This document shows, piece by piece, positions 10,750 to 48,965 of a DNA stretch of 64,000 bases. Position numbers and translations under genes: made by a program. Position 1 is the stretch's first letter, and every line of letters begins with the position of its first letter. Source of the stretch: Linanthus parryae. Its lineage: Eukaryota; Streptophyta; Magnoliopsida; Ericales; Polemoniaceae. Below the pieces are notes generated by a model. The model searched no databases and was not told the DNA's origin. It saw only the letters and a list, made by a program, of their open reading frames with translations. Where the stretch lies: contig JALGPY010000006.1 in NCBI GenBank assembly GCA_023055425.1, positions 72,758,127 through 72,822,126 on the forward strand, given 5' to 3'.

Positions 10750-12234
10750 GTTGATAATTCAATCTCTTTGAATTAATGAGGTATATGAACTCAGGGGGAG
10801 CTTGTATTTTGGAAGTGATGAAAGACAGAAATTCTAAGAGACAGATTCAAAGCTCCAAATCTTTTAAGCTTAGCTTTAATTTATGAACTTGTTATATTCT
10901 GACAAGTTTATGTGCTGCAGGCTAAATTTTGGATTGAATTATGTTAATAGTGTCTCTTAAAAATATTATTAGGCTTATAGAATGATTTGTTTATGCTAAA
11001 AGATTGAAAATTTTTTTGGCTTCAAGGATCAGTGTTAGTTTCCAAAGCTTTGAAGTACTGTCAAAGCTCCAAAGCTTTGAAGGTTACCTTTGGGATTCTT
11101 TCAGTTACTTCTGTGACTGATTGATTCTTCGTGCATACTGATTTAGCTGTTTGTGTGATTGATTACTGAATGGTTGTGAGTCATAATCTCATCACTAATT
11201 ATTATTTGAGACATGAACATGTTATTTATATAGATTTTAATCTGCAAGAGAACATACCCGAGTTTATTGTTCAAACTGATCTGTCTAACATATTAGGTAT
11301 TTCTATGCTCATTTTATCTGGACTGATCTTGTGATTGAGTCTTGCAAGGTTGTTTGTCGTTCAAACCCTCCTAAAAAATCAATTAAGCTATTCAAATATA
11401 GCTGTTGAAAGAAGCAGCTTGGGGGTTGAGGATATTCAGGAAGTTTGTTCTTAAAATCTCTCATGTTGTTGCTCCTGTTTGTTATAAGATTGAATTTGAT
11501 TTTCCAAGTGAAAGATAGAGCTGAAACACTGAGAAAGGAAGAGAGTTCATTCGTGGAATATCTACATTCATCTCTTCATTCATTCATCCAAGAATTCAAC
11601 ACACAGAATATGAATCATCCAGATTCTGAAGAACACTTATGAGCATTATTTGCTTATCTATTTTCTGTGTTCTTCTGTGAGCTTTCATTGTATTATTTTA
11701 AATTTTTTCTCAACCTCATAAACTTTAGTAAGTTAGTTGTTCAAGTGAACAAAAAGTGGTTCTCATTATTTCCTTAGATTGTAGCTGAAACTAGATAAAT
11801 TTGGAACCACAAGCTGTATAAGTGTAAGGTAGTTCACTTAGGCTTGAGATCTAGGGAAAAATTTGTGACTAAGAAGAATATATTCAGATTCTGGAGGGAT
11901 AGTATCCCTCAGGCGGAGAGTAGGCCAATTGGTGGCTGAACTTTTTAAGAAATATTGTGTTCACTGCTTTACTTTACAACTATTCATTCTGCATACCAAA
12001 CTGCTCAAAACAGGCAGCTCCAAAGCTTTGGAGAATTTCCAGTCTCAAAGTTTTGAAGCTCCAGACAGTTTCATTATGTTTCAAACTACTTCAAAAGTTT
12101 CCAAATCCTTGAGATTCTCTCTTAACTATGTTTTTAAGTTTCAAAAGGTCATTGTTAGCAAAATTTTGCATACTCTATTCAACCCCCACTCTAGAGTATT
12201 AAGATCCTGTTTATACATGCATTACACAATTACA
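10750..12234 (+). repeat. 5' LTR of element F (start approximate)
   Basis: The 3' boundary is clear: it ends TTACA just before the primer site. The start is uncertain by about 60 bp and was placed by aligning the CTCAGGGGGAG block (10793) with the same block in the LTRs of D and E. The core CAAAGCTTTG occurs at 11043, 11070 and 12021. Confidence 0.6.
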
Positions 12235-12236
12235 GT

Positions 12237-12248
12237 TGGTATCAGAGC
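12237..12248 (+). other. Primer-binding site of F
   Basis: TGGTATCAGAGC, complementary to the 3' end of initiator tRNA-Met, two bases after the LTR end. Confidence 0.85.
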
Positions 12249-12284
12249 TTTGGTTCACTGTAAGGATTTAACCATCTTGTGACT

Positions 12285-14145
12285 ATGAGTAATGTAGGTG
12301 ATGGAGAATTCTCTCAAGGAAGATCAGCCAATATACCTTCATTGTTCTGTGGTGACAACTTTGCTCACTGGAAGAAATTGATGAAGAAGTTCATCATAGA
12401 TCAAGACATGTAGCTATGGTCAATTACTCAAAATGGTCCCTATATTTAATATACTACTTCTCATGGGATCAGAAATGCTAAGAAAGAAGATGATCTTTCA
12501 ATTACAGAATGGGTAAAGGTATCCAAAAATTATAAAGCTATGAACTTGTTATATTGTGCTCTTAGTGCAGTGAGTTCAACGGGATTTCCAACTGCAAGAG
12601 TGCCAAGGAGATTTGGGACATTTTGTCTGTAACAAATGAATGAACTAGTTAGGTCAAGCAGACCAAAATCAACATTCTTCTAAGGCAGTATGAGTTATTC
12701 AAGATGAATTTTGATGAATCCATCAATGACATGCTCAAAATATTCACACACATTGTGAATAACTTGGAGTCCTTGGGAAAAGAATTCTCAAATGAAGAAA
12801 AAGTCAGAAAAATTCGAATAAGTTTGCCAAAAGCCAAGTGGGAGCCAACGTCAACTGCAATTGAGGAAGCTCGGGATTTGAGCATTCTTGAGCTAGATGA
12901 TCTGCAAGCTCACTCATGAGATTTATATGAAGGAAGTAGACGTTGACATGGGTGACATAATCAAGAACCTAGCACTCAAGGCAAAAGACAGTGAAAAATA
13001 TCAAGGCCTTGAACAGGAAGATGATGATGATGAAGAAGCCTTATCCTTGATCTCTAAAGCTTTGACCAGAATTCTGAAGATGAAAAATTTTGTTGGAAAC
13101 AAGGATTACAACAAAGACAAGTCCAGATCCTCAACCAGCAAGGATCACAGAGGTAAGTCTTCGTCACATTGAAATAAATCTAAAGTAATGAATTGCTTAG
13201 AATGTGGAGATGCAGATCACTTGGTGAGAGATTGTCTTCAAAAGGAGAAGAATAGAAATTTTCCCAAGAAGGAAAATGACAACAGAAGGAAGAAAGCTAT
13301 GGTTGCATCATGGAGTGATTCTGATTCATCCATTGAATCAAATTCAGATGAAGAAAAGCAAATCTATGTCTAATGGATGAGCATGAAGAAGAAAACAGCT
13401 CAGACAAGCATATGGAGGAGATGCTAAAAAATCTTCTTGCTAGTCCTTCTGATGTTCTACCCGAAATTCTAGAAAGTATATTTTTAAAGGAGGAAAGCTA
13501 TAGAAATGAGATTGGGTCTTTGTAGGTGAAATTTCATGAGAAAGCTAAGGAAAATTTGAGTTTAGTTTTGCAGAATAAAAATATTGAAGTTTCTAAGTCA
13601 AAAACTGACAGTGACTTCAATGACTTGGACAACATGTTCAAAGCTTTGAAGGCACAGTTTAAAGAAGTTTTAGATAAAAAATCTTTTTTAACTGATGAGT
13701 TTGTTGCTCTAAAACATTATTCAAATGATTTAGAACAACAAAAAAATTCTTTGACTGAGAAACTTCATGAATCAAAGAAAGTTTTGTCAAGATTTGCAGG
13801 CTCTGAACATAATCTTAATCTCATGCTTGGAGGAAGTCTACATTCTGTACACAAAAGTGGAATTGGTTACAATCCAAATTTTCCAAAGAAGAACCAAACC
13901 ACATTTGTGAAGGCAGGAAACAGACATTCTCCAAAATGTAATTATTGTGGAAAAACTGGACATCTGAAGTTAACTTGCCCCTTTAGAAGGACATAACCTC
14001 ACATATTGAGGAACACTTATCCTTATCATATTAAGGGACAAGTGAAGCAGATTTCAGTTCCTAAAGGAATTAGACCACCTAACATGGTTTATTCTGAATA
14101 TGAATCCAAATTCGACATTTGGTCTAATAGCTTGTTGAGGCATTG
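12285..14145 (+). pseudogene. Gag of element F, broken
   Basis: It starts MSNVGDGEFSQGRSAN, aligning with the Gag start of D and E. Stops interrupt it (for example codon 45) and frames shift near 12600, 12920 and 13380. Two zinc knuckles remain: CLECGDADHLVRDC at about 13194 and CNYCGKTGHLKLTC at about 13938. Between them lies a charged, coiled-coil-like stretch including FKALKAQFKEV. Gag would form the cytoplasmic particle and bind element RNA, but no full-length protein can be made. Confidence 0.8.
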
Positions 14146-14149
14146 ATTG

Positions 14150-16557
14150 AATTTTACAGGCTGTCACCAAAGCTTTGAAGGATCAAAAGTGGATTTAAGA
14201 CAGTGGTTGTTCCAGGAATATGAGAGGAAAAAATCTTTGTTCTCAGAACTTAAGGAGCAATATGGGGGAACAATCACACTTGTGACAAATGCAATATTAT
14301 TGGCATAGGTAGTATTGGTAATGAATCGGCAAATTCCATTTCCGATGTTTACTTGGTAGAAGGTTTGAAATATAATCTGCTTAGTGTATCTCAATTATGT
14401 TATAAGGGTAATAGAGTTGTTTTTGACAAGGAAAAATGTGTGGTGCAAGATGAGAAATCTGGAAATTCCATACTCACTGCTCCTAGGTCATACAATGTTT
14501 ATGCTATGAGTACTAACAAAGTTGCAGGTGAAAGTCTAAAGTGTCTCAAAGCTTTGAAGGATGACTCAAAGCTTTGGCATAAAAAACTTGGGAATATAAA
14601 CATGCATACAATGAACAAACTCATCTCAAAGTACTTGGTAAGAGGATTACCATCTATGAGATTCAAAGACGATGAGATCTCCAAGGCATGTACCCAAGGT
14701 AAACTGACAAGCAGTTCATTCAAGCCAAAGAACTTTTTAAGTACTACTAGATCCTTAGAGTTGATGCACATGGACTTGTGTGGTTCTATGAGGGTTCAAA
14801 CACCCAAATGTAAGAAATATATGCTTGTTGTGGTAGATGATTACTCTAGATTTACTTGGGTTATGTTTATTAGAGAAAAATATGAAGCATTGTCTGAATT
14901 CTCAAAGCTTTGTAAAGAGCTTCAAACTTTGAAAAAATCACCTCTTGTATCTATTAGAAGTGATCATGGCAGAGAGTTTGATCAACTAGATTTTAACTTA
15001 TTTTGTGCAAAGCATGGCATCTCACACAAATTTTCTGCACCTAGAACTCCACAGCAGAATGGAGTAGTTGAGAGGAACAATAGGACACTTGAATATATGT
15101 CTAGAACTATGCTACTTTAAAGTCACTTGCCAAAATATCTCTGGGCAGAAGCTGTTAACACTGCCAATTATGTGCTGAATAGATGTTTGATTAGGCCTAT
15201 TTTGAAGAAAACTCCTTATAAACTTTTCAAAAGGCAGAAAGCCAAGTGTTTCTTACCTAAAGCCTTTTGGTTGTACTTGCTATGTGCATAATAATGGTAA
15301 GGATAATCTTGGTAAATTTGATGCTATGAGTGACGAAGGTGTATTTCTTGGTTGTTCTCAAACTAGCAAAGCTTATAGGGTTTTCAATAAGAGAACTAAA
15401 GGTTTAGAGGAGAGAATTCATGTGATTTTTGATAAAAGTGCTAATGATTCCTTGAGCGAAAATTTTGCAGATCTAAATCTGAATAAGTATGAGGCAAATG
15501 ATGACCTTGAGGAAGAAAAATGAAGCAAAACTAATCTCCACGAACAGACAGAAGAATCTCAAAGCTTTGGCCATCCTCCTGAATCAAAATCTCAAAGCTT
15601 TGAGACTGGATCTCACAGAACACAAAGTGCTCCAGCTACTGCTTCAAATTCTTAAAGGATTGAAAAAATTAATGGAGAACTAGAACCCTGGACACCAAGG
15701 AAGAGATTCAAGTATTTATCAGCTCATCCAACAGACAATATCATTTCAGATCCAACAAATGGTACGCAGACCAGAGGAAAATTGAAGAACTTGTGTGCCT
15801 TCAATGCTTTTGTATCAGTTATTGAACCTAAGAATGCAAAGGTAGGATTAAAAGATGAATATTTGATCATTGCAATGAAGTATTAGCTGAATGAATTTGA
15901 GAGTAACAAGGTGTGGTACCTAGTTCATAGGGTAAAGACTCAATCATTCATTGGAATCAGATGGGTGTTCCGAAACAAACTTGATGAAAATGGCAAGGTT
16001 GTGAGAAACAAAGCCAGACTTGTGGCACAGGGATATAATCAACAAGAAGGTATTGATTATGAGGAGACATTTGCTCCTGTTTCCAGGTTAGAAGCTATCA
16101 GAATACTTCTTGAATTTCCATCTTATAAAAACATAAAGCTTTATCAAATGGATGTCAAATGTGCTTTCCTAAATGGTTATTTATAAGAGGAAGTATATGT
16201 TTATCAACCTCCTGGTTTTGAAGTTGACAACTTTTCTGATCATGTTTACAAATTAGACAAAGCTCTCTATGGCCTCAAGCAAGCTCCAAGGGCTTGGTGT
16301 GACACACTGTCAAAGTATTTACTTGAAAATAATTTTAAGAGAGGTCTAGTAGACAAAACTCTTTTTATTAAAAGTCATGAAAAGTACATCTTAGTAGTAC
16401 AAATTTATGTTGATAATATATTATTTGGTGCTACTAATGATGCTCTATTAAAAGATTTTTGAGGTCTAATGTGCAGGGAATTTGAAATGAGCTTGATGAG
16501 AGAGTTAAATTTCTTTCTTGGACTTCATGTACATCATGCAGGATTCTTTGAATACTA
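14150..16557 (+). pseudogene. Pol of element F (protease, integrase, partial reverse transcriptase), broken
   Basis: The protease motif region at about 14180 is out of frame. The best surviving frame, 14353-15120 (255 codons), holds the GAG-pre-integrase finger and integrase core: MDLCGSMR, then IRSDHGREF, then TPQQNGVVER (D, D and E of the triad). It ends in a stop. The reverse transcriptase is recognisable from [14 protein letters not shown] (about 15964) through YGLKQAPRAW. The catalytic YVDD box reads YVDN, so the enzyme would be dead even without the stops. The sequence is cut at 16557 before RNase H. Confidence 0.82.
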
Positions 16558-17445
16558 GGACCTACGTCTCTACCTCAAGAATTTGATCCCTGCAGGATTT
16601 TCAACTCAATTCTTATTAATCAAAAGCTAAGCCCTAGATCTCAAGCACAGAGATTTCCTTTACTCTGTTACTTCTTTTGGTTCTCACTAACCTATATAGT
16701 ACCTGCTCTAGCTAACCGATTCTGCAATAATTCTCTGTTGTTCACTTAGACAACTCACTAGAATAAGATAATAGAAGTATTATCAAAATGATGTACAAAT
16801 TAAGTACAGAAAGGATAACACTGAGAACTAGTGAAGCAATGGAGTATGCAGTGATCTTCTGATGCTTGGATTGAGTGAATTTAATCTCGTTCTGTATTGC
16901 TTGTCAGACCTTGAGAGTGTTTGAACGTCTCTGTCAAAGTTCTGCACCAATTCTCTCTGCAATTCCCTCTCTTATGCTGCTAGTTTGAAATGAAGATTTG
17001 TAGGATCTTCTTCAAACAAATTCTCCTAAAATCAAGCAGCATATCTTGATTCTCTAACAGCTTTTCCCAACGGCTAGTTGCTCAGTATCTTTTAAGATAC
17101 TGACTTGATCTTTTATCCGATAGTGTTAGGAAAGTCCAGGCATGATTGCACAAGAAAAGAATCCATTTGAAAATCTTATTTTCTTTCGTGCAAACACACA
17201 GATTATGAAATAGTTCCTGCAAAATAGGTAGGTAATTAATCTTTCCAAAACTAGTCAAACAGAGAGATTAGCAATAGTTTTGAGGAATATTTTTTTTTTT
17301 CTTTCATCATCAAATAAGACATAACCAAGCATATGAGATCAAAAATCAAATTAGAATGAAAAGCTCCCCAGTTCATGCCATATATTGCAGTATAGTTTCA
17401 AGCCTTTGAAAGATGTTTCAATGCCTTGAAACAGCGCAGTTTTCA
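16558..17445 (-). repeat. Inverted partial Sirevirus LTR (G)
   Basis: Read on the minus strand from 17445 it starts TGAAAACTGCGC and follows the LTR of element D through the GTTGAAAATCC...GTAGAGACGTAGG block. It stops before the last 300 or so bases of the LTR. Upstream of its start there is no polypurine tract but unrelated DNA, so it is a 5' LTR or solo LTR rather than a 3' LTR. It joins element F head to tail in opposite orientation at 16557/16558. Confidence 0.75.
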
Positions 17446-17960
17446 ACATTGAATGCAAAATGTCCCATTGACAGGATACACAACTCCGTGTAATACGGCT
17501 TGACTTTATTTTCCTTATCCGCTCTAATTGGATTGAATCTGAATTCCTCACGTGAATGGAGGAACATTAGGTTGTTCACTGTATCGATGCAATAGAAAAT
17601 TTGCCTTTATTTTGTTTCCTTTCTCTTCCATTTACTGAGCCGTGCATTTAATTAGAGCAACTAAGTGTGGGTTTTTTCGGTTAGCTCTTGAAACCGCCGT
17701 AAGGGATCGTGGTGTACATTCTCCAACTTCACTTAGGCCGAAGCAATGTACCACATTAAACCAACTCAACACGAAGGTCCAACCCAAATTTACAAGAGAC
17801 CACAAGTTTCCACTTGAATACAGAGTAATCGACTACCATAGGACCTTATCATCCTAGCACAATAAAGGAACTTAAAGTATCCCCAATATTTACTTTCCAC
17901 AGTTTCCTAAATATTGGGGACATCCTTTCATGAAATAAGCACGCAAGATACTAAGATTAA
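17446..17960. other. No gene seen
   Basis: Sequence between the inverted LTR G and non-autonomous element A. It holds no ORF with family resemblance; its one notable structure is the hairpin at 17880-17920. Confidence 0.45.
17880..17920. repeat. Perfect 13-bp inverted repeat (hairpin)
   Basis: TCCCCAATATTTA at 17880-17892 and its exact reverse complement at 17908-17920 are separated by 15 bases. No T run follows, so it does not look like a terminator. Confidence 0.85.
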
Positions 17961-19860: not shown

Positions 19861-19981
19861 TCCTACTTCATGCGTTCTTGAGAAAACAGACTCACTAGAC
19901 ACTCGTGAAGCAATGAGATAGAAAAGAAAAGAAAAATTTAAGGTACTCTAAACTAACTCCTAACTAACTAATCTACCGTTT

Positions 19982-19999: not shown

Positions 20000-20004
20000 A
20001 AAAT

Positions 20005-27522: not shown

Positions 27523-28814
27523 TGAAAGTGTGAGTATGCAGTTGTATAAGCAGCTAAGATACTCTAGAAGGGGGGGGGGTTGAATAGAGTATGCAAACTT
27601 TTTGTAAAACTTGCTAGGAAGATGAAAAACTTGTACAAACAAAGAATTTCAAGGCCTTGAACATAGGTTCAAGCCTTTGAAGTAGATGCAGAAAGAGTAT
27701 GGCAAGTATGTCATTTTTCAAGGCCTTGAAAACAAGTTCAAACCCTTGAAAATAAACAGTTCTTGTATGCTTCAAAATCACTGAAAGTAAATGAACTGAA
27801 AATGCACAAGACAAGTGATTTATAGAGTTCAGTCCACTTGGACCTACGTCTCTACCTCAGGGATTAGATCCTTGCAGGATTTTCAACTCAATTCTTATTA
27901 ATCAAAAGCTAAGCCCTGGAACTCAAGCACAGAGAGTTCCCTTATTCTGTTACAGCTTGTGGTTTTCCCTAACCTATCTAGTACCTACTCTAGCTAACTG
28001 ATTAACTAAGAATTCTCTAATGTTCACTTTTAACAATCCTTGAGAATGAATGTAGAAATGATACAGAAATAATTTACCGATATAGCTCTATACAGAAGAT
28101 CACTTCAGAGTAGAAAACTGCATTGAAATGCAGTGAACTTCTGTGAAGATTGGAAGAGATGAAGAACTTATTTGATGCTTGTCAATCCAGAATACTTTCT
28201 CTGTATTTGCCCGTTAAGTATTGTGTCTTGTTGCTTCGAATTCGAGCTCTATAAATACTTCAAACAGCTCTGCAAATCTCCCCAGATTTTCAGCAACAAC
28301 CTTCCTATTTTGTAGGCAACAGAGTTTTGACTTCTTTGAAATCTTATCCAACGGTTGAATGATCACAATCTTCAGAGATATTGTTGTAAAATTTTATTTA
28401 ACCACCGTGAGAAGATGTCATACACGTCTGATTGATCACGGGATCAAAGTATTCCAGTGTTTCCAAATCTGCAGCAATACAGTTTAGGAAATAATCCTGT
28501 AAAACTTAGAAACAAAATTTCCTGCATTATCATGGTCAAACAGATGATATATTGTGTTTCAAAACATGTTAAATGACTTGTCTTTCATCATCTAATAACA
28601 GATAATCAAAATTATGCAAGAGAAAGAATAAATAAAATCAGAGAGTTAGCAGGAAACTTATGCATTCCGGTTAAGCAGTTTCAAGGCTTTGAATTCAATT
28701 TCAAGGCCTTGAAAATAGCCAAACTATTTTTAAGCCTCTGAAGCTGATTCAAGGCTTTGAAAGGTCTTTCAAGGCCTTGAAATAGCCTCAAGTCTTGAAC
28801 AACCCGAGCTTTCA
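27523..28814 (-). repeat. 3' LTR of element D (1,292 bp)
   Basis: In element orientation it begins TGAAAGCTCGGG and ends CACTTTCA. Flanking DNA on the left ends in GAGTC. The first 150 bases hold a row of TTCAAGGCCTTGAA-type palindromes. A TATA-like CTATAAATC lies at about 27816-27824 on the minus strand. The polypurine tract GGGGGAG precedes it at 28817-28825. Confidence 0.85.
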
Positions 28815-34250: not shown

Positions 34251-35882
34251 AGCTGTTAGACCAAGTGTGGAATTTGGATTCATATTCAGGATCAACCATG
34301 TTAGGTGGTCTAACCCCTTTAGGAACCCAAATATGCTTAACCTGTCCTTTAAGTTGAAAAGGAAAAGTGTTCCTCATTATGTGAGGGTCTCTTCTTCTAA
34401 AAGGACAAGTCATTTCAGCAAGAGTAATCTTTTGTTTCTCTAAATCATCAACCTGATTTCTTAGATTAACAAGGCTGTCACTCACAGAGGAGTTTTCAAT
34501 GACTACTTCCTTGACTTGTGTTTTCAAGGCTTTGAAACTAGTTTTCAAGGCCTTGAAATCACTGTCATTTTTCTTCTGAGAAATTTCAAGATTCTGATTT
34601 AGGCAAACAAGTTGTAGATTTTCTTTTGCTTGCTCATGAACTTTTTCTTTAAAAAGCTTGATCTCTTTCAGATAATCATCCTCATTTAAAAGCATTGTTC
34701 TGAGATATTCTGAAAGAGCTTCTTTTGGCATTGAAATTAAACAGTTTACCATTACCTCAATTTTCTTTTCACAACTCTCATCATGCTTGGCCATGAAGCA
34801 TAGATTGGCATGTTTTTCTTCAGATTCAGATTCACTAGAGCTATCTGAATCACTCCATGAAGCTATCTTGGCTTTCTTTCTTTTGTCACGATCTTTCTTC
34901 TGAAAGTTCTTGCTCTTTTTGTGTGGACAGTCTCTTATCAAGTGTCCTGCATCACCACACTCAAAGCAATTCATAACTTTTGACATGTTCTGTGAAGAGG
35001 ACTTACCTTTGTAATCCTTGCTGCTGGATGGTCTATGCCTTTCCCTGTTGAATTCTTTATTTCCAGAGTTTCTCTTCATTTCGAGAACCCTTGTCAAGGC
35101 TTTGGAAATTATGGCAATTGGATCTTCATCATTACCATCCTCAGTTTCAAGGCTTTGAATTCTCTCATTCTATTTGGCTTTGAGGGCTAGATTTTTGACA
35201 CCTTCTGCGAGTTCTCCATCAACTTCATTCATAGATATCTCATGTGTCAGGAGCTTCCCTTGTAGGTCATCAAGTTGTAAAGTTGAGAGATTCTGAGCTT
35301 CTTCAATAGCTGTGGTTTTTGGTTCCCATTTTGCCTTTGGAAGACTTCTGAGAATCTTCCTCACATATTCGTCATTGGAAAAATGTTTTCCCAGTGAGTC
35401 AAGGTTCTTAACAATATCAGTGAATCTCTTGAACATATCTCTCATGGACTCATATGCATTCATCTTGAACATCTCATATTGTCTGAGATAAATATTGATC
35501 TTGGTTTGCTTGACTTGACTGGTTCCTTCAAAGGTAACCACAAGTTTATCCCAGATTTCTTTAGCAGTTGTGCATCTAGAGTCCTGTTGAATTCATATGT
35601 ACTCAAAACACAATACAAAATGTTAATAGCCTTGTCGTTCTTAGAAAATTGCTCTAATTCAGAATAGGAGAGTGAGTCTTATGTTTTGGTAGTTCTGATC
35701 CCATCTTTCTCTGTGTAGAAAGAATGAGGTCCATTTTGGATAATGGTCCAAAGCTCTAGATATTGATCAATGATAAACATTTTCATGAGAGCTTTCCAGT
35801 GAGCAAAATTTTCTCCACAAAACAGAGGAGGTCTGTTAGCAGCTCTTCCTTGTGAGAAACCACCATCACCTGCAGTACTCAT
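34249..35882 (-). pseudogene. Gag of element D, broken
   Basis: Starts MSTAGDGGFSQGRAAN at 35882, right after the primer site. Stops and shifts occur near 35679 and 35100. The longest frame (35097-34249, 282 codons) holds the intact zinc knuckle CFECGDAGHLIRDC and the FKALKTSFKALKTQVK repeat. The second knuckle is lost in a short deletion that leaves only TCPFRR. Confidence 0.82.
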
Positions 35883-35932
35883 GATCACCAGATGGTTAAA
35901 TCTTATACAGTGATACAAGCTCTGATACCAAT

Positions 35933-36341
35933 TGAAAGTGTGTGTATGCAGTTTTATAAGCAGCTAAGATACTCTAGAAGGGGGGGTTGAATAGAGTATG
36001 CAAACTTTTTGTAAAACTTGCTAGGAAATAATCCTGCAAAACTCAGAAGCAAAGTCAAACAGATGATATTCTATGATCAAAAGTGTTAAAATAATATGTC
36101 TTTCATCATCTAATAACAGTGACTCAAACAAATGAAAGATAGAGAGGAAATCAAACTCAGAGAGTTTGCTGGAAAACTCCCCCTGAGAATGTTCATACAG
36201 GTTAAGCAGTTTCAAGGCTTTGAATCCAGTTTTAAGGCCTTCTATTTTCAAGCCTCTGAGAACTGATTCAAGGCTTTGAAAGCTGGTTCAAGGACTTTAA
36301 ATAGTTGAACTATTTCAAGTCTTGCACAACCTGATCTTACA
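35933..36341 (-). repeat. Chimeric 5' LTR of D (409 bp)
   Basis: Its first about 315 bases (36341 down to about 36025) match the head of E's 3' LTR (TGTAAGATCAGG...). Its last about 95 bases match the tail of D's own 3' LTR (GCTTATAAAACTGCATAC). The join is at TTTCCTAGC (36021-36028), where both parents share TTCCTA. The middle of the LTR, about 880 bases, is absent. The outer flank, read on the minus strand, is CACGA. Confidence 0.8.
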
Positions 36342-36346
36342 TCGTG

Positions 36347-37484
36347 TGATTGCTCCACACATTTTCATCTTTCTCCAAGGATGAATCTTGGAAGATCATG
36401 AAACAAGATGTATATACACTCTCTACATTGCAACTCTTTGTGTTTAGACTAACATGGCTTTGTAGGAGATTTAAAGTATGTGAAACACCTGGTCTGGGTA
36501 TCCTAAGAGCTGAAGTGTCACGACTCTTTGAGTTGAAGTTCCCCCTGAGCCTCTTGAATTCGTGTGACACCGTGAAGACTGTAATCCCTTCGATGTTTCA
36601 GAAACGTTCTGGTTTAGAAAACTCGATGGAATTAGTTTTCCTCTATCTGTTGGAGTGAACACTAAAAGCCATGCTTTTTGTATTGGATTATTTGAATTGA
36701 AATGTATGAGAATAGTTTTGGGCAATGTTTTATGCATAGTTGTCTATTATTCTACATAGTAGAAGATCTGGTGTGTAGAGTCTAGCTTCCACACAAAAGA
36801 TCATATCTTCGATTCTTGTGGAATGAAATTTATGAGTTCACAATCTAGATAAAATTAGACAAACCATCGGAACGATTGTAGCACATTGTTTTAGTATGCC
36901 GGTCTTGGCTACCGGAAACGGTATAGTTCATACAATAGTTTCAACTATATGTGCTAGTATACTTTGTGTATATTGAACATGACCAAGTTGAGATCATTGC
37001 CTTTGTACTGACATAACAAGACAAGTTGCGTCTCATGGTTATTATGATTACTTATGCTCTTAATCATTACGTAGTTAATATGCACATGTATTTAATAGTT
37101 ATTACTTTGACAAGTCATGTGAGTGAGATTCCTAAGGAGTCAATACCTCGATGAGTTGGGTGATACTATTGAGTCCATGGTGTAAATTGATGTATCAGAG
37201 CAATCCATGTCCCAGTTATGATATTGATGAAATCTCCTTGATGAAGCTTATAAGTTTTGATCGTGTCAAACCCTGCAAGTAGATTACTTGATAATCTGGA
37301 CATGTCAAATAAGTTAAGTGGTAAGGATCAATGATTTGGAAAGAGTTCGATTAAATGAATTAGTTAGTAATTAATTTAATCGACAGATATATGTAATCTT
37401 AACATGGGGAGTTAATAAGCATTTAATAACATGAGCTCGAAATATTTTTGTTGAGAATACGGACAGAAGTGCAATAAGAGTTAT
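36347..37484. other. No gene seen
   Basis: AT-rich sequence without a recognisable coding family. Parts (36780-37450) read like a decayed transposon leader, but no terminus or primer site could be fixed. Confidence 0.4.
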
Positions 37485-39771: not shown

Positions 39772-39776
39772 ACTAG

Positions 39777-40460
39777 AATAGAGAAAGAGTTCTGGATTTA
39801 CAAGCATCAAAGAAATTCATCAATCTTCCAATCCATTCACAGTAGATCACTGCATACGTTACTGCATTTTTCTACACTCTAAGTGTTCTTCTGTATTGTA
39901 CTCCATTGGTAGATCATTTCTGTATTATCTCTACATTCATTCTCAAGGATTGTTCAAAGTGAACAATAGAGAATTCTTAGTTAGTCAGTTAGCTAGAGCA
40001 GGTACTAGACAGGTTAGGGAAAACCACTAGCTGTAACAGAGTAAGGGAACTATCTGTGCTTGAGTTCTAGGGCTTAGCTTTTGATTAATAAGAATTGTGT
40101 TGAAAATCCGGCAGGGATCTAATCCCTGCGGTAGAGACGTAGGTCCAAGTGGACTGAACTCTATAAATCACTTGTCTCTTGCATTTACAGTTCATTAATT
40201 TTTCTCAGTATTTGCAGCATACAAAATATTCTGTTTTTCAAGGGTTTGAACTTGTTTTGAAGGCCTTGAAAAATTCTTACTTGCTTTATACAAACTGCAT
40301 TGCTTCCAGGGGCTTGAACTAGTTTTCAAGGCCTTGAACTTCATTGTTTTTCACAAGTTTTCATCTTCCTAGCAAGCTTTGCAAAGTGTTGGCATACTCT
40401 ATTCAACCCCCCCTTCTAAAGTATCTTAGCTGCATTAACACCTGCACACTCACACTTTCA
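39777..40460 (+). repeat. 5' LTR of E, first half missing
   Basis: Ends CACACTTTCA directly before the primer site. The TATA-like CTATAAATC is at 40161. Its tail (GCATTAACACCTGCACACTC) matches E's own 3' LTR rather than D's. The first several hundred bases, including the TGTAAGATC head, are absent; the sequence begins at ATAGAGAAAGAGTTCTGG. Confidence 0.82.
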
Positions 40461-40462
40461 AT

Positions 40463-40474
40463 TGGTATCAGAGG
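40463..40474 (+). other. Primer-binding site of E
   Basis: TGGTATCAGAGG, complementary to initiator tRNA-Met apart from the last base, two bases inside the LTR end. Confidence 0.85.
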
Positions 40475-40509
40475 TTGTATCACTGTATAGATTTAACCAT
40501 CTGGTGATC

Positions 40510-42366
40510 ATGAGTACTGCAGGTGATGGTGGTTTCTCTCAGAGAAGAGCTGCTAACAGACCTCCTCTATTTTGTGGAGAAAATTTTGCTCACTGGAAAG
40601 CTTTGATGAAGATGTTCATCATTGATCAAGATATGGAGCTTTTGACCATAATACAAAATGGACCTCACACTTTATACACAGAGAAATATGGGATTAGAAC
40701 TCCCAAATCTGAAGACTTACTCTCCTCTTCTGAATTAGAGCAATATTCTAAGAATTAAGATGCTATTAACATATTATATTGTGCTTTGAGTAAAGATGAA
40801 TTCAACAGGATTTCAGGCTGCACTACTGCCAAAGAAATATGGGATAAACTTGTGGTTACTTTTGAAGGAACCAGTCAAGTGAAGCAAACCAAGATCAACG
40901 TCTATCTCAGGCAATATGAGTTGTTTAAGATGAATGCAGATAAGTCTATCAGAGACATGATCAAGAGGTTCACAGACATTGTTAACAACCTTGATTCACT
41001 AGGAAAACATTTTTCTAATGAAGAAAAGGTGAGAAAAATTCTAAGAAGTCTTCCAAAGGCAAAGTGGGAACCAAAGACCACAGCAATTGAAGAAGCTCAG
41101 AATCTATCAACCATACAACTTGATGACCTACAAGGAAAGCTTCTGACACATGAAATATCCATGAATGAAGCTGATGGAGAGCTACCAGAAAGTGTCAAGA
41201 ACCTAGCTCTCATAGTTAAGGAAAATGAGAGTAATCAAAGCTTTGAAACTGAGGATGGTGATGATGAAGATCCAATTGCCGTGATTTCCAAAGCATTGAC
41301 AAGAATTCTCAAAATGAAGAAAAACTTTGGAAACAGAGACTCCAACAGAGAAAGGTATAGACCATCCAGTAGCAAGGACTACAAAGGTAAGTCCTCTATA
41401 CAAAATAAATCAAAAGTTATTAACTGCTTTGAATGTGGTGATGCAGGACATTTGATAAGAGATTTTCCACACAAGAAAAGCAAGAGCTTTCAAAAGAAAG
41501 ACCATGACAGAAGAAAGAAAGCTATGATAGCCTCACGGAGTGATTCAGATAGCTCTAGTGAATCTGAATCTGAAGAAGAACATGCCAAACTATGCTTCAT
41601 GGCCAAACATGATGAAAGTTCAGAGAAGAAACATTGAGGTAATGGTAAACTGTCTGATTTCAAAACCAAAAGAAGCTCTTTCAGAATATCTCTGAACAAT
41701 GCTTTTAAATGAGAAAGATTATCTGAAAGATATCAAAATTTTGAAGGAAAAAGTTCATGAGCAAGCAAAAGAGAACTTACAACTTTTTTGCCTAAATCAG
41801 AATCTTGAAATCTCTCAGAAGAAAATTGATAGTGATTTCATGGCCTTGAAAACCAGTTTCAAAGCCTTGAAAACACAAGTCAAGGATATAGTCACTGAAA
41901 ACTCTTTAATGAGTAAAAACCTTGTTAAAATAAGACATCAGATTGATGAATTAGATAAACAAAAGACTACTCTTACTAAGAAACTTAAAGAATCTGAATT
42001 GGTCAAAGTCAAGCTTGATGGATCAGAACACAAGTCGAACTTGATTCTTGGAGGAAGTTCACAGTCTGTTCACAAAGCTGGTATTGGATTCAATCCAAAT
42101 TTTCCAAGGAAGAACAATACCAGGTTTGTGAAGGCTGGAAACAAAACTTCTCCTACATGTCATTACTGCTGTAAAACTGGTCATGTTAAAATGACTTGTC
42201 CTTTCAGAAGAGGAGACCCTCACATAATGAGGAACACTTTTCCCTTTCAACTCAAAGGACAAGTTAATCTGATTTGGAACCCTAAAGGGGTTAGACCACC
42301 TAACATGGTTGATCCTGAATATGAATCCAAATTCCACACTTGGTCTAACAGCTGGGTAAGGAAGTG
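40510..42366 (+). pseudogene. Gag of element E, broken
   Basis: Starts MSTAGDGGFSQRRAANRPP. The frame breaks near 40758 (stop), 41637 (frameshift/stop) and 41690. The 283-codon frame 40786-41637 carries the first zinc knuckle as CFECGDAGHLIRDF, with the last zinc-binding Cys replaced by Phe. The 222-codon frame 41699-42367 has a coiled-coil-like region with FKALKTQVKD and the second knuckle CHYCCKTGHVKMTC. Gag should assemble the particle and bind RNA; the lost Cys would weaken that even if the frame were open. Confidence 0.85.
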
Positions 42367-42374
42367 ATTGGTGT

Positions 42375-45300
42375 TTGCAGGTTGTCACCAACATCAAAGA
42401 ACAGAAGTGGTTTATGGACAGTGGTTGCTCAAGACACATGAGTGGAAAGAGATCTCTATTCACAGAATTTAAAGAGCAATCTGAAGGTTCAATTACACTT
42501 GGTGACAAAGGCAGATGCAACTTGGTATTTGTAAAGTTGGTAAAAATTCTGAAAACTCTATTTCTGATTTGTATTCAGTTGAAGGTTTGAAATTTAACTT
42601 GCTTAGTGTATCTCAGCTTTGTGAAAATGGCAACAAAGTTATTTTTGATAAAGAGAAGTGGGTGGTGCAAAATGAGAAATCAGGACATTGCATTCTCACA
42701 GCCTCTAGATGAAACAATGTTTATACTTTTCAGACTAACAAAGTTGCAGGTGAAAGTTTGAAGTGTCTCAACGCCTTGAAAGAGGATTCAAAGCTTTGGC
42801 ACAGGAAGCTTGGTCATATCAGCTTGCACACTTTGAACAAGTTAATTTCCAAAACTTGGTAAGAGGATTGCCATCCATTAAGTTCAAAGAAGATGAAATG
42901 TGCAAATCATGTGCTCAAGGCAAACAGACCAGAAGCTCTGTCAAGCCAAAGAAATTTGTAAGTACAACTAGACCTATTGAGATGCTTCATATGGATCTAT
43001 GTGGTCCTATGAGAACTCCTGCTCCAAAAGGTAAAAGGTATATGCTAGCTGTTGTAGATGATTTTTTTAGATATACTTGGGTTATGTTTCTCAAAAAAAA
43101 TCTGAAGCACTCTCTGAATTTTCAAAGCTTTGCAGAGAAGTTCAAAACATGAAAAACCTACCTGTAGCTTCAATTAGAAGTGATCATGGTAGAGAATGTG
43201 ATCAGTTAGAATTTGATTTGTTCTGTGATAAGCATGGTATTAATCACAACTTTTCTGCTCCAAGAACTCCTCAACAGAATGGTGTTGTTGAAAGAAAGAA
43301 CAGGACTCTTGAAGATATGTCAAGGACAATGCTTCTTGAGAACAAGCTGCCAAAACATTATTGGACAGAAGCTGTGAATATATCAAACTATATTTTGAAC
43401 AGGTGCTTGATCAGACCTATTCTGAAGAAGACTCCCTATGAACTATTAAAAGGAAGGAAGCCAAATATTTCATACTTCAGACCCTTTGGATGTACTTGTT
43501 TTATCCACAATAATGGAAAAGACAATCTTGGTAAGTTTGATGCAAGAAGTGATGAAGGTATATTTTTGGTTACTTTCTTAATAGCAAAGCTTATAGAGTT
43601 TACAATAAAAGAACCAAATTGGTTGAAGAGAGCATTCATGTTATTTTTGATGAAAGCTTTGATGGTTCTTTGAGTGAAAGTTTTACAGACTTGAATTTGA
43701 ACAAGCATGAATCAGAAGAGATTGAGAATCCACTGGGATTCAAGAAAGGCTCAGAAGAAAACAGAAGACATTTTCAAGACCTTGAAAATGGTGCTCAAGG
43801 CCTTGAAAATAAGCCTCAAAACCTTGAAAATGATGATCAGAAGGATACATGTGACAGAGCCACTACTTCAAGACCAGAGAAGATCTATGGAGAACCTGGA
43901 CCATGGTATCCAAGAAAGAGATTTAAAATTTCACTCATCACATCCAGTTGACAATATCATTTCAGATCCAACCACTGGTACACAAACTAGATCACAATTG
44001 AAGAACTTATGTGCTTTTAATGCTTTTATTTCTCTTGCAGAACCAAAAACTGTGAAAGAAGCATTACAAGAAGCAGACTGGATCATTGCTATGCAAAGTT
44101 AACTCAATGAGTTTGAAAGTAATAAGGTTTGGAACCTGGGTCCTCCACCTACAAACCAGTCTGTCATTGGTACCTGATGGGTGTTCGGAAATAAGTTGGA
44201 TGAAAGTGGCAAAGTGATCAGAAACAAAGCAAGGTTAGTTGCTCAAGGTTACAACCAAGAATAAGGTATTGATTATGAGTAAACTTTTTCTCCAGTTGTC
44301 AGGTTAGAAGCAATAAGAGTTTTTCTTGCATTTGCATCTCACAAGAACATGAAACTTTTTCAAATGGATGTAAAATGTGCTTTCTTGAATGGCTACTTAC
44401 AAGAAGAAGTTTATGTTGCACAACCACATGCTTTTGAAAATGATAAGTTTCCAGATCATGTTTACAAACTTGAAAAAGCTCTCTATGGTTTGAAACAAGC
44501 TCCAAGAGCTTGGTATGAACGGTTGTCAAAGTTTTTGCTTGAAAATAATTTCAAAAGAGGTTTAGTAGACTAGACTCTTTTCATAAAGACTCATGAGAAA
44601 GACTTGATTGTAGTTCAGATATATGTTGATGATATCCTGTTTGGAGCTACTAAAGATCAATTGTGCAGAGAATTATCATGTCTTATGAGTAGGGAATTTG
44701 AAATGAGCATGATGGGAGAGTTGAACTTCTTCCTAGGACTTCAAATACATCAATTGAAGAAGGGCATCTTTCTACATCAAAGCAATTACACAAGAGACTT
44801 ACTAAACAAATATAGCATGGCTCAATGCAAGGAAGCTAAGACTCCTATAAGATCTACACTATCCTTAGACAAGGATGAATCTGGTAAGAGTGTCAATGTG
44901 AAAGAGTATAGAGGTATGATTGGATCATTACTCTATCTCACAGCAAGAAGACCAGATATTATGTATAGTGTGTGTATGTGTGCTAGATTTCAAGCTGATC
45001 CAAAAGAATCACACTTGACTGCTGTGAAGAGAATATTCAGATATCTCAAAGGTACCAAAGACTTAGGGCTTTGGTATCCAAGACATTCTAACTTCTCTTT
45101 GCATGGATTTTCAGATGCTGACTTTTCAGGTTACAAAGTTGATAGAAAAAGTACTTCAGGGAATTGCCAATTTATTGGATCATCCTTGATCAGCTGGCAC
45201 TCCAATAAACAGAATTCATTTGCTCTATCAACAGCTTAAGCTGAATATAGAGCTGCAGGAGCATGTTGTTCACAAGTACTATGGATTGCTCAACAGCTAA

Positions 45301-45535
45301 GAGATCTTGGATTTGACTTCAGGAGCATACCTATTAAGTGTGATAACACTAGTGAAATTTCAATTACAAATATTCCAGTGCAACATTCAAGAACCAAGCA
45401 CATTGATGTCAGACACCATTTCATCATAGATCATGCTGAGAAAGGTGATATTGTTCTTGAATTTTTTTCTACTAACATGCAGCTTGCAGATATCTTCACT
45501 AAATCATTTCCAGATGAAACATTCTCAGCTCAAGA
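42375..45535 (+). pseudogene. Pol of element E, broken
   Basis: Protease WFMDSGCSRHMSG (about 42407), GAG-pre-integrase (about 42580-42950), integrase core (MDLCGPMR; IRSDHGREC; TPQQNGVVERK) with a frameshift near 43100 and another near 43570. A linker of repeated Gln-x-Leu-Glu-Asn units follows (43770-43830). Reverse transcriptase starts near 44170 and keeps YVDDILF (about 44622). RNase H runs from about 45000 to 45450 with HIDVRHHFI near its end. At least five in-frame stops are present (for example 44101, 44176, 44263, 44571, 45237). Gene order is Copia (integrase before reverse transcriptase). Confidence 0.88.
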
Positions 45536-46028
45536 CTGGAATTAGGCATGCTAAATAAGGATGCTTTGGTTTAGGGGGAGAATCAGGTAAGAAAGGTAAG
45601 CTTTATGTGTTTTCAAAGGTTTGAACTGAGTTTCAAAGCCTTGAAAATCAGTTCAAAAACTTTTGCTTTTATTTGTTGCAGTGTTACAATTTTTCAAGAC
45701 CTTGAAAATCTTTTCAAAACCTTGAAAATGAGTCTGCTACACTGATAGTCAATAATCTTGGATCATTCTATGTTGGGTGATATCTCTGTAGATATTTGCC
45801 TTATATAGCCCCTACCTTTTTAAACAATTTGTTTTAGCCAAAAATAGTATTAGAATATTTTATTTTCCAACGGCATAAAAGATTGAATTCTCTCTGATTA
45901 CTGCAAATCTTTTGAGATCAGAGAGATACTAGTTTCCTTTTGAAAATCTAACTCTTTCAGTATTTATCATCTTCTCTTCTCCTCTCTCCGTATCATTCCA
46001 CCTCTCTCTATTCTTCTCCCAAACCCTA

Positions 46029-47773
46029 ATGAGCACAAGGAGAGCCTCAGACAGAATCAAGATGGCTGGAGGATCGAAATTTACTTCAGAGAAGAAAAGA
46101 AAGGCAGCAGTGGATGAAGTTCAAGAAGTCAGTGGAGACTCTAGCTCTAGAACTCCCAGTGAAGAGGCAGTTCCAGTTCTTCCTCCACCCAAGAAAAAGG
46201 TCAATAAGGTTACAACTTCCTCCTCAGAAAAGAGGCATAAGAAGAAAGATAAAGCTATTACAGGGAAGAAACCTGAAACAGAATCCACTAGTTCAAAGAA
46301 GCTGAAAAAGAAGAAAGCAACTCAAGCAGAAAAAGCGAAGCGAAAGGTGACATAAGAACAACCAGAAGGTCGACTGGAGAAGGCCTTTCAGATCTATTCA
46401 AAGGCATCAACAAATAAAACAACCCCCAATGAGACTTGGTTTGTCTCAAACATCTCTAAAGGTCAGTGGTTAGATGGTTTTGCTTCCAGATCTGTTGGTT
46501 TCTGTAGTATGATCAATATGCATATGGTGGAACACATGAAACTTAAGTGCGTCTCCATGTTGAAGAAAAGTTCTCTGTGGGTCATGTTGAATCCTAAAGA
46601 GTTAGCCTATCCTAGACTCATCAGATTTTCTATCTGAATTTGACACAAGTTAGGAGATCTGCACACTTGCTGATAAAGTCTAGAGTTGTTGGGATAGAAA
46701 TTGAGTTGGACCACTCTTAGTTTTCCAATGTGTTTGGTTGCCCAAAGAGGTATGACACTAGCAATCATCCACCAAAGACAGAAACTCTAAAGCTAGCCAA
46801 AGATGAGTTCTTTCTTACAAACATCTCCTCCTCAGCCAAACAGTTAACACATTCTGTGTTGAATGTTGACGCCAAGGTCCTTCATACCATTATGGTTAGG
46901 TGTATTTTTTCCAGAGAGCACTCTAGAGAACTAGTAACTGAAAGGATGCTGCACATTATGTATCTGGTTATGCATGGCTATGAGATTGATCTTCCCAAAC
47001 TAGTTATTGAGCATAAGCTCTTCAGCCTTACCAGTCAAAGAAAACACCCTCTACCCTATGCCAATCTGCTCACTTTGTTCTTTGAACACTTTGAGATTCC
47101 AACTAGTGGAGAGGAATTAGTTACTTCTGGTTTTGGAATGCTTAATGAGAAAGCTTTTGAGAAGATTGGAGTGGTGAAGACTAAGGAAAAAACCTGGAAG
47201 TTATACTTAGACTTGACTGAAGAAGAACTGGGTGAAAAGAAGTTTATTAAGCCCAAGACCTTGACTCCCAATTCAAGTCAGACTTCTCAGGCTACAAACA
47301 ATCAAAGAATTGATGGTATGGAATTGAATTTGGAAGACATCAAAGCAACTGTTTATGGAATTGAATCTGAAATGGGGCAAGTCAAGTACATGGTGGACAA
47401 CATCTTCATAAGCATGACTTTGATTGATAGTCCTGAGGATGATGAAGGTCCAAAGAAAGGAGACTCCGAAAAAGATATGCCTAGTGAACATTCAAGCCCG
47501 GAAGAAGTTGCTCCAGTCTCAGATAAGGGAAAGCAGGTGGCAGAGCAAGCCTCACAGGAAGGAGATGAAGTCAACAGTCCTGACTCAGATGATCTGCTGA
47601 TTACCTTGAAGAAAAAGAAGAAATCTCCAAAGGCTGCTACAAAGGACAAGACTGAAGAGGTAATTGTTGCTGGTGAGAAGGAAGAGGAACAGGAAGTGCA
47701 GGAAAAGACTGATGAAGAAGATAGTGAGAAGGAGGAAGGAGATCAAGTTGCAGATGAAAATCAAACCCCTTAA
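46029..47773 (+). pseudogene. Sirevirus extra ORF of E, broken once or twice
   Basis: Begins MSTRRASDRIKMAGGSKFTS. A stop at 46353-46355 ends a Lys-rich 108-residue N-terminal part. The middle is interrupted near 46636 and 46720. A long frame, 46730-47773 (347 codons), then holds the conserved middle (LTHSVLNVDAKVLHTIMVRC; ERMLHIMYLVMHGYEIDLPK) and a strongly acidic tail. The homologous ORF of D is the same length and order, so the gene was part of the ancestral element. It resembles, from memory, proteins annotated as putative plant transposon protein; its role is unknown. No convincing transmembrane segment was seen. Confidence 0.75.
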
Positions 47774-48081
47774 TCTTGCTTACTCTTTCTTCCAAAATCT
47801 CTATTCTTAAAATTTTCTTTAAGTTTTCAAAATTTTCCAGACACTTGATCCAACATCTTCTATATTTTTGATGAAAGGAAAAAAAAGGGGGAGAAAATTC
47901 TAGGATGGTTTTAGGTTTTTATTTCTAGGTTTTATTTGCTATTTGCTGAACTGTTTACTTTATGTTGGTAATGGAATAAGTTGGATCTTTTTGGAATTAC
48001 TGTGTTATTATAAATTGTAAACTAACAAGTATTTTTTTGCAGAGACTAAGGATCAAACAGAATTTGGTTTTGTCTTTCATC

Positions 48082-48092
48082 AAGGGGGAGAC
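48082..48092 (+). other. Polypurine tract of E
   Basis: AAGGGGGAG lies two bases before the 3' LTR start. Similar tracts at about 45574 (AGGGGGAGAATC) and 47886 (AAGGGGGAGAAAA) match the multiple polypurine tracts reported for Sireviruses. Confidence 0.8.
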
Positions 48093-48965
48093 TGTAAGAT
48101 CAGGTTGTGCAAAGCTTGAAATAGTTCAGCTATTTCAAGGCCTTGAACCAGCTTTCAAAGCCTTGAATCAGTTCTCAGAGGCTTGAAAATAGTTTAGCTA
48201 TTTTCAAGGCCTTGAAACTGGATTCAAAGGCTTGAAACTGCTTAACCTGTATGAACATTCTCAGGGGGAGTTTTCTGCCAACTCTCTGAGTTTGATTTCG
48301 TCTCTATCTTTCATTTGTTTGAGTCACTGTTATTAGATGATAAAAGAGAAATTATTTTAACACTTTTGATCATAGAATATCATCTGTTTGACTTTGATGT
48401 TGCAGGAAATTTTATTTCTAAGTTTTGCAGGATTGTTTCCTAAACTGAATTGTTGCAGATTTGGAAATAGTTGCACACTTTGATCCTGTGATCAATCAGA
48501 TGTGCATGAAAACTTCTCATGGTGTTTATATGAAAGATCACAACAAAATCTCTGAAGATTGTGATTATCCAACCGTTGGAGAAGATTGTGATTGAGTTCT
48601 AGGGCTTAGCTTTTGATTAATAAGACTTGTGTTGAAAATCCTACATGGATCTAATCCCTGAGGTAGAGACGTAGGTCCAAGTGGACTGAACTCTATAAAT
48701 CACTTTTCTCTTGCATTTACAGTTCATTAATTTTTCTCAGTATTTGCAGCATACAAAACTGTCTGTTTTTCAATGGTTTGAACTTGTTTTCAAGGCCTTG
48801 AAAAAGACTTACTTGCTTTATACAAACTGCATTGCTTCTGAACTTCACTGTCTTTCAGAAGTTTTCATCTTCCTAGCAATCTTTGCAAAAAGTTGGCATA
48901 CTCTATTCAACCGCCCCCTTCTAGAGTATCTTAGCTGAATTAACACCTGCACACTCACACTTTCA
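48093..48965 (+). repeat. 3' LTR of E (873 bp, internally deleted)
   Basis: Begins TGTAAGATCAGG and ends CACTTTCA. Compared with D's 3' LTR, a block of about 400 bases is missing at about 48592 (GAAGATTGTGATTGAGTTC). TATA-like CTATAAAT at 48693. The five bases after it, CACGA (48966-48970), also occur (inverted) next to the head of D's 5' LTR. Confidence 0.85.

Follow-up and report, generated by a model that had tools for sequence, protein, structure and literature searches.

Why should one short palindrome recur in the long terminal repeats (LTRs), the spacers and all three reading phases of the genes of the same retrotransposons? The question is raised by a 64-kb stretch of the Linanthus parryae genome (contig JALGPY010000006.1; hereafter, the window), in which an earlier reading of the letters alone (the sequence-only reading) had noticed TTCAARGCYTTGAA and close variants scattered through Sirevirus elements. 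Using self-BLAST, tblastn and Pfam, we found three Sirevirus-type copia copies, designated A, B and C, with a combined length of 24,816 bases, the rest of the window being 39,184 bases. The results below concern this one window and three related copies, of which A showed 71-80% identity to B and C over aligned stretches.

At up to two mismatches, TTCAARGCYTTGAA occurred 61 times in the window, compared with a mean of 2.66 and a maximum of 7 in 100 dinucleotide shuffles. The motif is in excess in these copies: together they held 21, 45 and 60 matches at 0, 1 and 2 mismatches, respectively, and the remaining bases held one at each threshold. Copies A, B and C carried 12, 26 and 22 sites; 36 of the 60 lay in non-coding DNA and 24 within coding segments. 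When all 5-mer dyads with gaps of 0-12 were ranked against 30 first-order simulations, TTCAA-N4-TTGAA came out on top, with 34 occurrences against a maximum of 4. Inside the copies, the same arms at any other gap from 0 to 20 were found only 0-3 times, and the outward arrangement TTGAA-N6-TTCAA was found 19 times, with 0-2 occurrences at other gaps. The arms TTCAA and TTGAA were almost invariant and the four central bases loose; the commonest centres in sense orientation were GGCC (15), AGCT (14) and AGCC (13) among 69 sites, a set that takes in weak partners with up to four mismatches. TTCAARGCYTTGAA, as first described, is therefore a real motif, but its constant part is TTCAA....TTGAA and the usual unit in copies B and C is a pair of sites.

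That pairing, like the constancy of the N4 and N6 gaps separating half-sites, went beyond what had been noticed before. A neighbor at exactly 20 or 21 bp was present for 43 of the 60 sites (A, 2 of 12; B, 22 of 26; C, 19 of 22), whereas 10,000 trials of random placement gave a mean of 0.56 and a maximum of 6. Non-coding DNA contributed 15 of the 23 adjacent pairs, each spaced at 20 bp, and coding DNA the other eight, spaced at 21 bp (six pairs) or 20 bp (two pairs); only two further pairs, one at 25 and one at 27 bp, fell within 30 bp. When partners with up to four mismatches were admitted, 27 of 37 runs contained two or three sites. Since the 6-7-base spacers varied among pairs while the arms stayed constant, the pairs are not mere tandem duplications. 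Near two helical turns, 21 bp is the distance at which both sites share a reading phase; accordingly, the two coding pairs at 20 bp, which occupy the same place in B and C, span two phases, reading LKALKE or LNALKE and then SKLWH. Position 6 tended to be G in the first sense site of a pair and A in the second (Fisher p 0.025 in B and 0.10 in C, two tests that are not independent).

The coding sites at up to two mismatches (A, 5; B, 10; C, 9) were read as F-K-A-L-K and the like in phase 0, Q-x-L/F-E in phase 1 and S-K-L in phase 2. Synonymous shuffles, 5000 per copy, held the protein and each copy's codon usage fixed. Observed counts at this threshold exceeded the shuffle means in A (5 vs. 1.37), B (10 vs. 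2.16) and C (9 vs. 1.62) and were reached by 3, 0 and 0 shuffles, respectively; at up to one mismatch the corresponding numbers were 8, 0 and 0, and exact dyads alone were equaled by 0 of 5000 shuffles in B and 44 of 5000 in C. The segment of C at 43682-44248 holds nine stops, part of it lying beyond a frameshift and out of the true frame, and the linker sites of C read QDLEN, QGLEN and QNLEN in the frame used for the shuffles. The motif thus survived the codon-preserving shuffles that the sequence-only reading had set as its refuting test (3, 0 and 0 of 5000), and with the use of three codon phases this excess in each copy upholds the view that protein selection alone is insufficient; DNA-level constraint thus adds to protein constraint. 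At corresponding gag sites (YQGLEQ, IQSLET and NQSFET), the G/S and L/F changes hit the degenerate R and Y positions of the motif.

Conservation among the copies was examined in 14 piece comparisons, in which the identity of motif columns was tested against shifted masks. Motif columns were more alike than 95% of the shifted masks in five comparisons, the clearest being the LTR heads of B and C (98.2% vs. 81.9%, 0 of 447 shifts). The others were gag in A and B (85.7% vs. 68.8%, 16 of 1309) and in A and C (83.3% vs. 69.8%, 61 of 1526), together with pre-integrase/integrase in A and B (90.5% vs. 75.7%, 18 of 1015) and in A and C (88.1% vs. 75.7%, 39 of 1015). The center was AGCT at most sites of copy A; in non-coding DNA, AGCT was found at four of five sites in A, none of 18 in B and none of 15 in C, where the other centers included AGCC (6) and GGCC (5) in B and GGCC (5) and AGCC (2) in C. 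All three copies shared a single gag site that had no partner at 20/21 bp and at which a two-site hairpin is impossible.

Starting from the observed sites, spacings, paired arrangement and excess over synonymous shuffles, we consider the motif to be a putative dyad site for a dimeric DNA-binding protein, used mostly in two-site units and serving regulation or anti-silencing, a reading to which we assign a probability of roughly 0.58. Among the causes proposed by the sequence-only reading, a protein-binding site fits best, as suggested by the exact two-turn spacing, the unrelated spacers, the constant arms and the shared single site in gag. A dimer would bind TTCAA-N4-TTGAA, and in a two-site unit, whose centers are separated by 20-21 bp or roughly two B-DNA turns, two dimers could sit on one face of the helix. 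Copies B and C have such units at both LTR ends (head and tail), ahead of the ENV-like open reading frame (ORF), within gag and pre-integrase/integrase, and in the linker between integrase and reverse transcriptase (RT); copy A has the sites, with partners mostly weak or otherwise spaced. One factor may read coding and non-coding sites alike and influence transcription or the escape from silencing along the element. A role in transcriptional control fits the sites in LTR heads and tails and ahead of the ENV-like ORF, and those within genes suggest an element-wide effect, such as resisting silencing. The pairing and a coding placement beyond what the protein needs would provide a testable binding-site architecture, for which a 34-bp paired probe would serve, and suggest that part of the linker and gag sequence has been shaped by DNA-level selection. 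A more ambitious version, which we regard as unlikely, is an element-wide address code of paired, helically phased dyads, placed in the LTRs and, where codons are tolerant, in the genes, that would be read by a protein of the element itself (the ENV-like product being a candidate), would keep the element active or mark its own DNA, and would change together with its reader between subfamilies. Should the reader be encoded by the element, an LTR retrotransposon would possess its own system of self-recognition or anti-silencing.

A number of observations weigh against a bound dyad. The center was polar in sense orientation (AGCC 13 times, GGCT once), which is unexpected for a perfectly symmetric site. 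Within-site symmetry exceeded that expected from column composition in the pooled copies (30 of 5000 randomizations with Watson-Crick pairing, 251 of 5000 with G-U allowed) and was not significant in any single copy (B, 4947 of 20000; C, 6105 of 20000; A, 1066 of 20000); we therefore no longer count covariation inside sites as evidence that the DNA site is symmetric. In nine of the 14 piece comparisons the motif columns showed no extra conservation beyond 95% of shifts, including gag B/C (222 of 1321), pre-integrase/integrase B/C (283 of 1015), pre-ENV B/C (72 of 888) and linker A/B (568 of 895), and in linker A/C they were less alike than their surroundings (65.7% vs. 71.7%, 928 of 1136 shifts). 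The lack of an excess in the linker when A is compared with B/C suggests that sites turn over inside a tolerant stretch. Coding sites were mixed with respect to the AGCT center (A, 5 of 8; B, 2 of 11; C, 3 of 10; one gag site of A had GGCC), which weakens the notion, well borne out by non-coding DNA, that the subfamilies differ in a whole set of motif versions. Copy A obeyed the spacing poorly: both of its sites with a strong 20/21-bp neighbor belong to an LTR fragment inserted into it, the distances between its own LTR sites are 27 and 25 bp and between its linker sites 33 bp, and in its genes the three partners at 20/21 bp are degenerate, with 3, 3 and 4 mismatches. Exact dyads alone were not significant in A (678 of 5000 synonymous shuffles). 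Moreover, the gag pair lies within a heptad (KAL...KAL) that is retained as protein in the relatives P0121 and P0123, which makes a protein contribution in gag likely, and A, B and C share ancestry and are not independent tests.

The principal rival is that the paired palindromes fold in the transcript, as an RNA structure used for packaging or dimerization or as a source of host small RNAs, which we consider possible, if doubtful. Hairpins between neighboring sites were seen in all 12 stretches folded from the 27 multi-site runs, with 11-17 pairs interrupted by mismatches, loops of 4-9 bases and z-scores of -2.5 to -5.1 relative to dinucleotide shuffles, and the LTR palindromes of maize Sireviruses are structured and rich in small RNAs (PMC10760457 and PMC5311732, both citing Bousios 2016, in the portions accessible to us). 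Self-complementary site pairs always fold together, however, so the hairpins are automatic, and neighboring sites were not more complementary than re-paired ones (2129 of 5000 with Watson-Crick pairs, 3165 of 5000 with G-U included). The asymmetric centers were mostly AGCC (13), in which C-A breaks the pairing, and rarely GGCT (1), in which G-U would preserve it; hairpins accept many loop lengths, yet the strong pairs fell mostly at 20/21 bp (23 pairs); and the partnerless gag site common to the three copies speaks against a hairpin role. As a selected structure the RNA hairpin was set aside, the folds being stable but indifferent to re-pairing, and it is retained as the main rival. The self-spreading micro-palindrome, another cause proposed by the sequence-only reading and taken here as a functionless micro-repeat moved by template switching, slippage or gene conversion, found little positive support. 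Sites did recur at 68/69 bp (seven distances, including the LTR heads and the LTR tail of B at 28680-28781, 48134-48236 and 27648-27750), a recurrence that probably reflects local duplication in the LTRs, and the 3′ LTR tail of C has lost a site-bearing stretch that B and the 5′ LTR of C retain. The variable spacers, the quantized 20/21-bp spacing and the occurrence of the gag, pre-integrase and integrase sites at the same places in three copies, matching the protein frame, make such self-spreading rather improbable.

Selection on the protein only, acting on gag heptads (F-K-A-L-K) and linker repeats (Q-x-L-E) and leaving the DNA palindrome as a by-product, can point to the KAL heptads in P0121 and P0123, to the paired linker words of the relative P0001 described below, and to SKLC and KLWH falling within conserved domains. 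Shuffles that preserve the protein nevertheless yielded far fewer sites, the same DNA is read in three phases and 36 of the 60 sites are non-coding; protein selection is refuted as the sole cause, and we hold this account to be very improbable. TTCAA and TTGAA are, finally, frequent words in AT-rich plant DNA, from which a reader could have selected a chance pattern. An unbiased scan that puts the dyad top (34 vs. 4) and the concentration of 60 of the 61 sites in 39% of the window refute this idea, which deserves almost no credence.

Known systems were compared with the dyad site that we favor. In the heat-shock element, nGAAnnTTCn, GAA and TTC alternate every 5 bp; this candidate was rejected, as the TTC and GAA starts here are 11 bp apart within a site and 9 bp apart between the sites of a 20-bp pair. 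CHR/TSO1-type sites (TTYRAA) and the EIN3 site were further candidates considered. Neisseria and Pasteurellaceae have DNA uptake sequences, short identity tags that run across coding DNA in several frames. These tags belong to bacterial genomes, in contrast to the retroelement studied here, and homology is not implied.

The repeated motifs (RM boxes) of Sireviruses, according to the accessible portion of the report of Bousios et al. (2010; PMC2829016), are palindromic and numerous, occupy the LTRs and the stretch directly preceding ENV (two elements have additional copies where ENV begins), and have a CGG-CCG core in 12 of 13 elements, the exception being Tnd-1; a common binder could not be named. 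The motif described here resembles them in being a palindromic dyad present many times per element in LTRs and pre-ENV DNA, with a sequence that depends on the family. The RM-box threshold of at least eight copies per element is exceeded in A, B and C (12, 26 and 22), and the placement in LTRs and upstream of ENV is matched by the 36 non-coding sites and the arrays at 31123-31236 and 45612-45726. By contrast, TTCAARGCYTTGAA lacks the CGG-CCG core and is free of CG and CHG. RM boxes form CpG islands; the motif itself contributes no CG. Sites here further occur past the TATA box, at the LTR tail, as well as within gag, integrase and the linker that joins integrase to RT. Of the RM boxes located in LTRs, 92% fall in the upper half and begin 200-400 bp inside the LTR, whereas the 3′ LTR of C has four of its six sites in the upper half, at 41-143 bp, and two at 676-709 bp. 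The 20/21-bp pairing is unmentioned for RM boxes in that portion of PMC2829016, a comparison that did not extend to the RM sequences themselves. We conclude that the motif belongs with the RM boxes by symmetry, number and general place, and differs in core, LTR positions and coding spread. Since the RM motifs in that portion are described for LTRs, the pre-ENV linker and, in two elements, the ENV start, the spread into coding DNA does look unusual, as the sequence-only reading had thought.

According to the accessible text of PMC5735166, VANC anti-silencing proteins target short motifs, such as YAGTATTAY, that are repeated in VANDAL transposons, and VANC21 localizes to non-coding regions of VANDAL21. 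The likeness lies in a short motif present many times per element, differing among related families and with element-wide reach; YAGTATTAY itself is unrelated, and 24 of the 60 sites here are in coding segments. The LTR palindromes of maize Sireviruses are likewise clustered and RNA-foldable, but their motif is CACCGGACNNNGTCCGGTG and is described for LTRs (PMC5311732 and PMC10760457, in the portions accessible to us). Among the literature matches listed, which left many subscription papers outside their scope, the motif, sites in coding regions and 20/21-bp pairing were unreported for Sireviruses; no LTR-retrotransposon paper was recognized by title among the matches listed for the motif letters, and nothing on coding-region palindromes appeared in the accessible portions of PMC9073684 and PMC3599292.

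The locations of the copies, of their sites and of the ENV-like ORFs are compiled in Table 1. The positions named by the sequence-only reading held the motif or a close variant, starting at 11041, 12019, 27648, 27717, 34523/34544 and 40325 and at 48134, 48203, 48789, 13637, 14565 (3 mismatches), 14901 and 33475. Two of its context labels need correction: position 34533, taken for an LTR, lies in gag of B, and of the S-K-L sites assigned to integrase, 14901 and 33475 were placed correctly while 14565/14567 (SKLWH) falls in the GAG-pre-integrase domain and not in the integrase core.

Table 1. Sirevirus copies, motif sites and ENV-like ORFs in the window (numbered from its first base)
Feature	Positions	Strand	Remarks
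Sirevirus copy A	10750..17500	+	diverged subfamily; self-BLAST, tblastn, motif list
A LTR sites	11041..12057	+	11041/11068 (27 bp), 12019/12044 (25 bp); off the 20-bp rule
A gag single site	13000..13013	+	phase 1 (YQGLEQ)
A gag	13616..13650	+	site 13637 (FKALKA); decayed partner 21 bp upstream (3 mismatches)
A GAG-pre-integrase	14545..14578	+	site 14545 (LKALKD); partner 14565 at 20 bp (SKLWH, 3 mismatches)
A integrase site	14901..14914	+	phase 2 (FSKLCK); degenerate partner 14921 (4 mismatches)
A linker	15558..15604	+	two CAAAGCTTTG sites 33 bp apart, read QSFG, QSFE
20-bp pair in LTR fragment at end of A	17397..17430	unassigned (.)	
Sirevirus copy B	27523..36400	-	26 sites at up to 2 mismatches, 22 with 20/21-bp neighbor
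B 3′ LTR tail	27648..27750	-	pairs 27648/27668, 27717/27737
B 3′ LTR head	28680..28781	-	pairs 28680/28700, 28748/28768
B ENV-like ORF piece	29713..30309	-	PF20167 "putative plant transposon protein", 56.5 bits, cut-off 45
B pre-ENV array	31123..31236	-	31123/31143, 31183/31203/31223
B integrase/RT linker triple	32777..32832	-	21 bp, phase 1 (FQDLEN, SQGLEN, AQSLEK)
B integrase site	33475..33488	-	phase 2 (FSKLCR); degenerate partner 33455 (3 mismatches)
B GAG-pre-integrase pair	33809..33842	-	20 bp (LKALKE, DSKLWH)
B gag pair	34523..34557	-	21 bp, phase 0 (FKALK twice)
B gag single site	35146..35159	-	phase 1 (IQSLET)
B 5′ LTR head remnant	36211..36300	-	sites 36211, 36267, 36287
Sirevirus copy C	39780..48966	+	22 sites at up to 2 mismatches, 19 with 20/21-bp neighbor
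C 5′ LTR tail	40237..40338	+	pair 40237/40257; 40325 with weak partner 40305
C gag single site	41234..41247	+	phase 1 (NQSFET); same place as A 13000, B 35146
C gag pair	41837..41871	+	21 bp, phase 0 (FMALK, FKALK)
C GAG-pre-integrase pair	42767..42800	+	20 bp, phases 0 and 2 (LNALKE, DSKLWH)
C integrase site	43121..43154	+	phase 2 (FSKLCR); degenerate partner 43141 (4 mismatches)
C integrase/RT linker triple	43773..43828	+	21 bp, phase 1 (FQDLEN, AQGLEN, PQNLEN)
C pre-ENV array	45612..45726	+	45612/45632, 45693/45713
C ENV-like ORF piece	46721..47773	+	PF20167 42.4 bits, under cut-off 45
C 3′ LTR head	48134..48236	+	pairs 48134/48154, 48203/48223; weak third site 48174
C 3′ LTR tail pair	48769..48802	+	downstream of TATA box at ~48694

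Copia gag, GAG-pre-integrase, integrase and RT domains were present, as expected of a Sirevirus, and PF14223, PF13976, PF00665, PF25597 and PF07727 were found among the pieces of A, B and C. In copy C the 3′ LTR spans approximately 48093-48965 (~873 bp) and the 5′ LTR ends at 40460. The primer-binding site (PBS) and polypurine tract were read off the sequence, the former being TATCAGAG at 40466; its TATCAGAGG, five bases past the LTR end, agrees at eight of nine bases with the Sirevirus PBS, given as 5′-TATCAGAGC-3′ near the 5′ LTR end in the accessible portion of PMC2829016. A run of C in B and in both LTRs of C lies ~47 bp from the LTR end, the C-rich integrase signal of Sireviruses averaging 21 bp.

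A search with pol scored 7991 candidates, of which 6543 passed, and the figures given here rest on the 120 listed. The closest relative among these was P0001, with 60% identity over 81% of the query. Its linker contains four Q-[DG]-L-[DE] words in two pairs (QDLD/QGLD and QGLE/QDLE) seven residues apart, which would equal 21 bp. In the 102 of 120 listed relatives from which the linker could be excised by rule, at least two Q-x-L-E/D words occurred only in P0001, as they did in copy B of the window; P0005 and P0118 had one word each. A general test for short self-repeats in the excised linkers flagged P0023, P0042, P0046, P0049 and P0106, at offsets other than 7, and neither P0001 nor B. The linker arrays thus look family-specific and are weak as protein repeats. 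Searching with gag gave three relatives from 711 candidates. The two-site pattern had no match in viral_contigs, where the pattern derived from P0001 matched once and that from a 12-row pol alignment 51 times, none of these matches being confirmed as relatives.

The ENV-like ORFs of B and C sit between pol and the 3′ LTR, as in some Sireviruses, and their protein found no relative among 112 candidates, so that the ENV identity rests on position. For the ENV-like piece, the predicted structure was unreliable (mean predicted local distance difference test score of 41), and sequence comparison with solved structures gave 14 weak matches (best E 0.098), mostly to GCN4-fusion coiled coils or a histone chaperone. 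In the C protein, the C-terminal part (47609-47773) contains KKKKKSPK (47609-47632) and an acidic, glutamate-rich tail; by eye it has no obvious membrane segment and looks nuclear rather than membrane-bound. Around the pre-ENV array of C there are splice-like GGTAAG (45586) and TTGCAG (~45676) sequences, and TATATAG (45802) lies ~220-260 bp ahead of the candidate ENV-like start codons (46021-46062), an arrangement that suggests a separate promoter or a spliced ENV message.

Copy A ends in a separately inserted LTR fragment (16554-17500), which is of B/C type, lies in reverse orientation and holds its own 20-bp pair (17397/17417). The 3′ LTR tail of C (48830-48850) is without a palindrome-bearing stretch that B and the 5′ LTR of C retain, and the two LTRs of C thus differ by a site-removing deletion. 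The only match outside the three copies is a perfect TTCAAAGCTTTGAA at 54716-54729, beside a different copia element (54807-56078, minus strand). A copia element at both ends of the window shares 1-1473 and 55048-56520, which are 99.5% identical. A second pair with the same identity, 56521-56939 and 63581-64000, abuts the first, an arrangement resembling LTRs of a young nested insertion.

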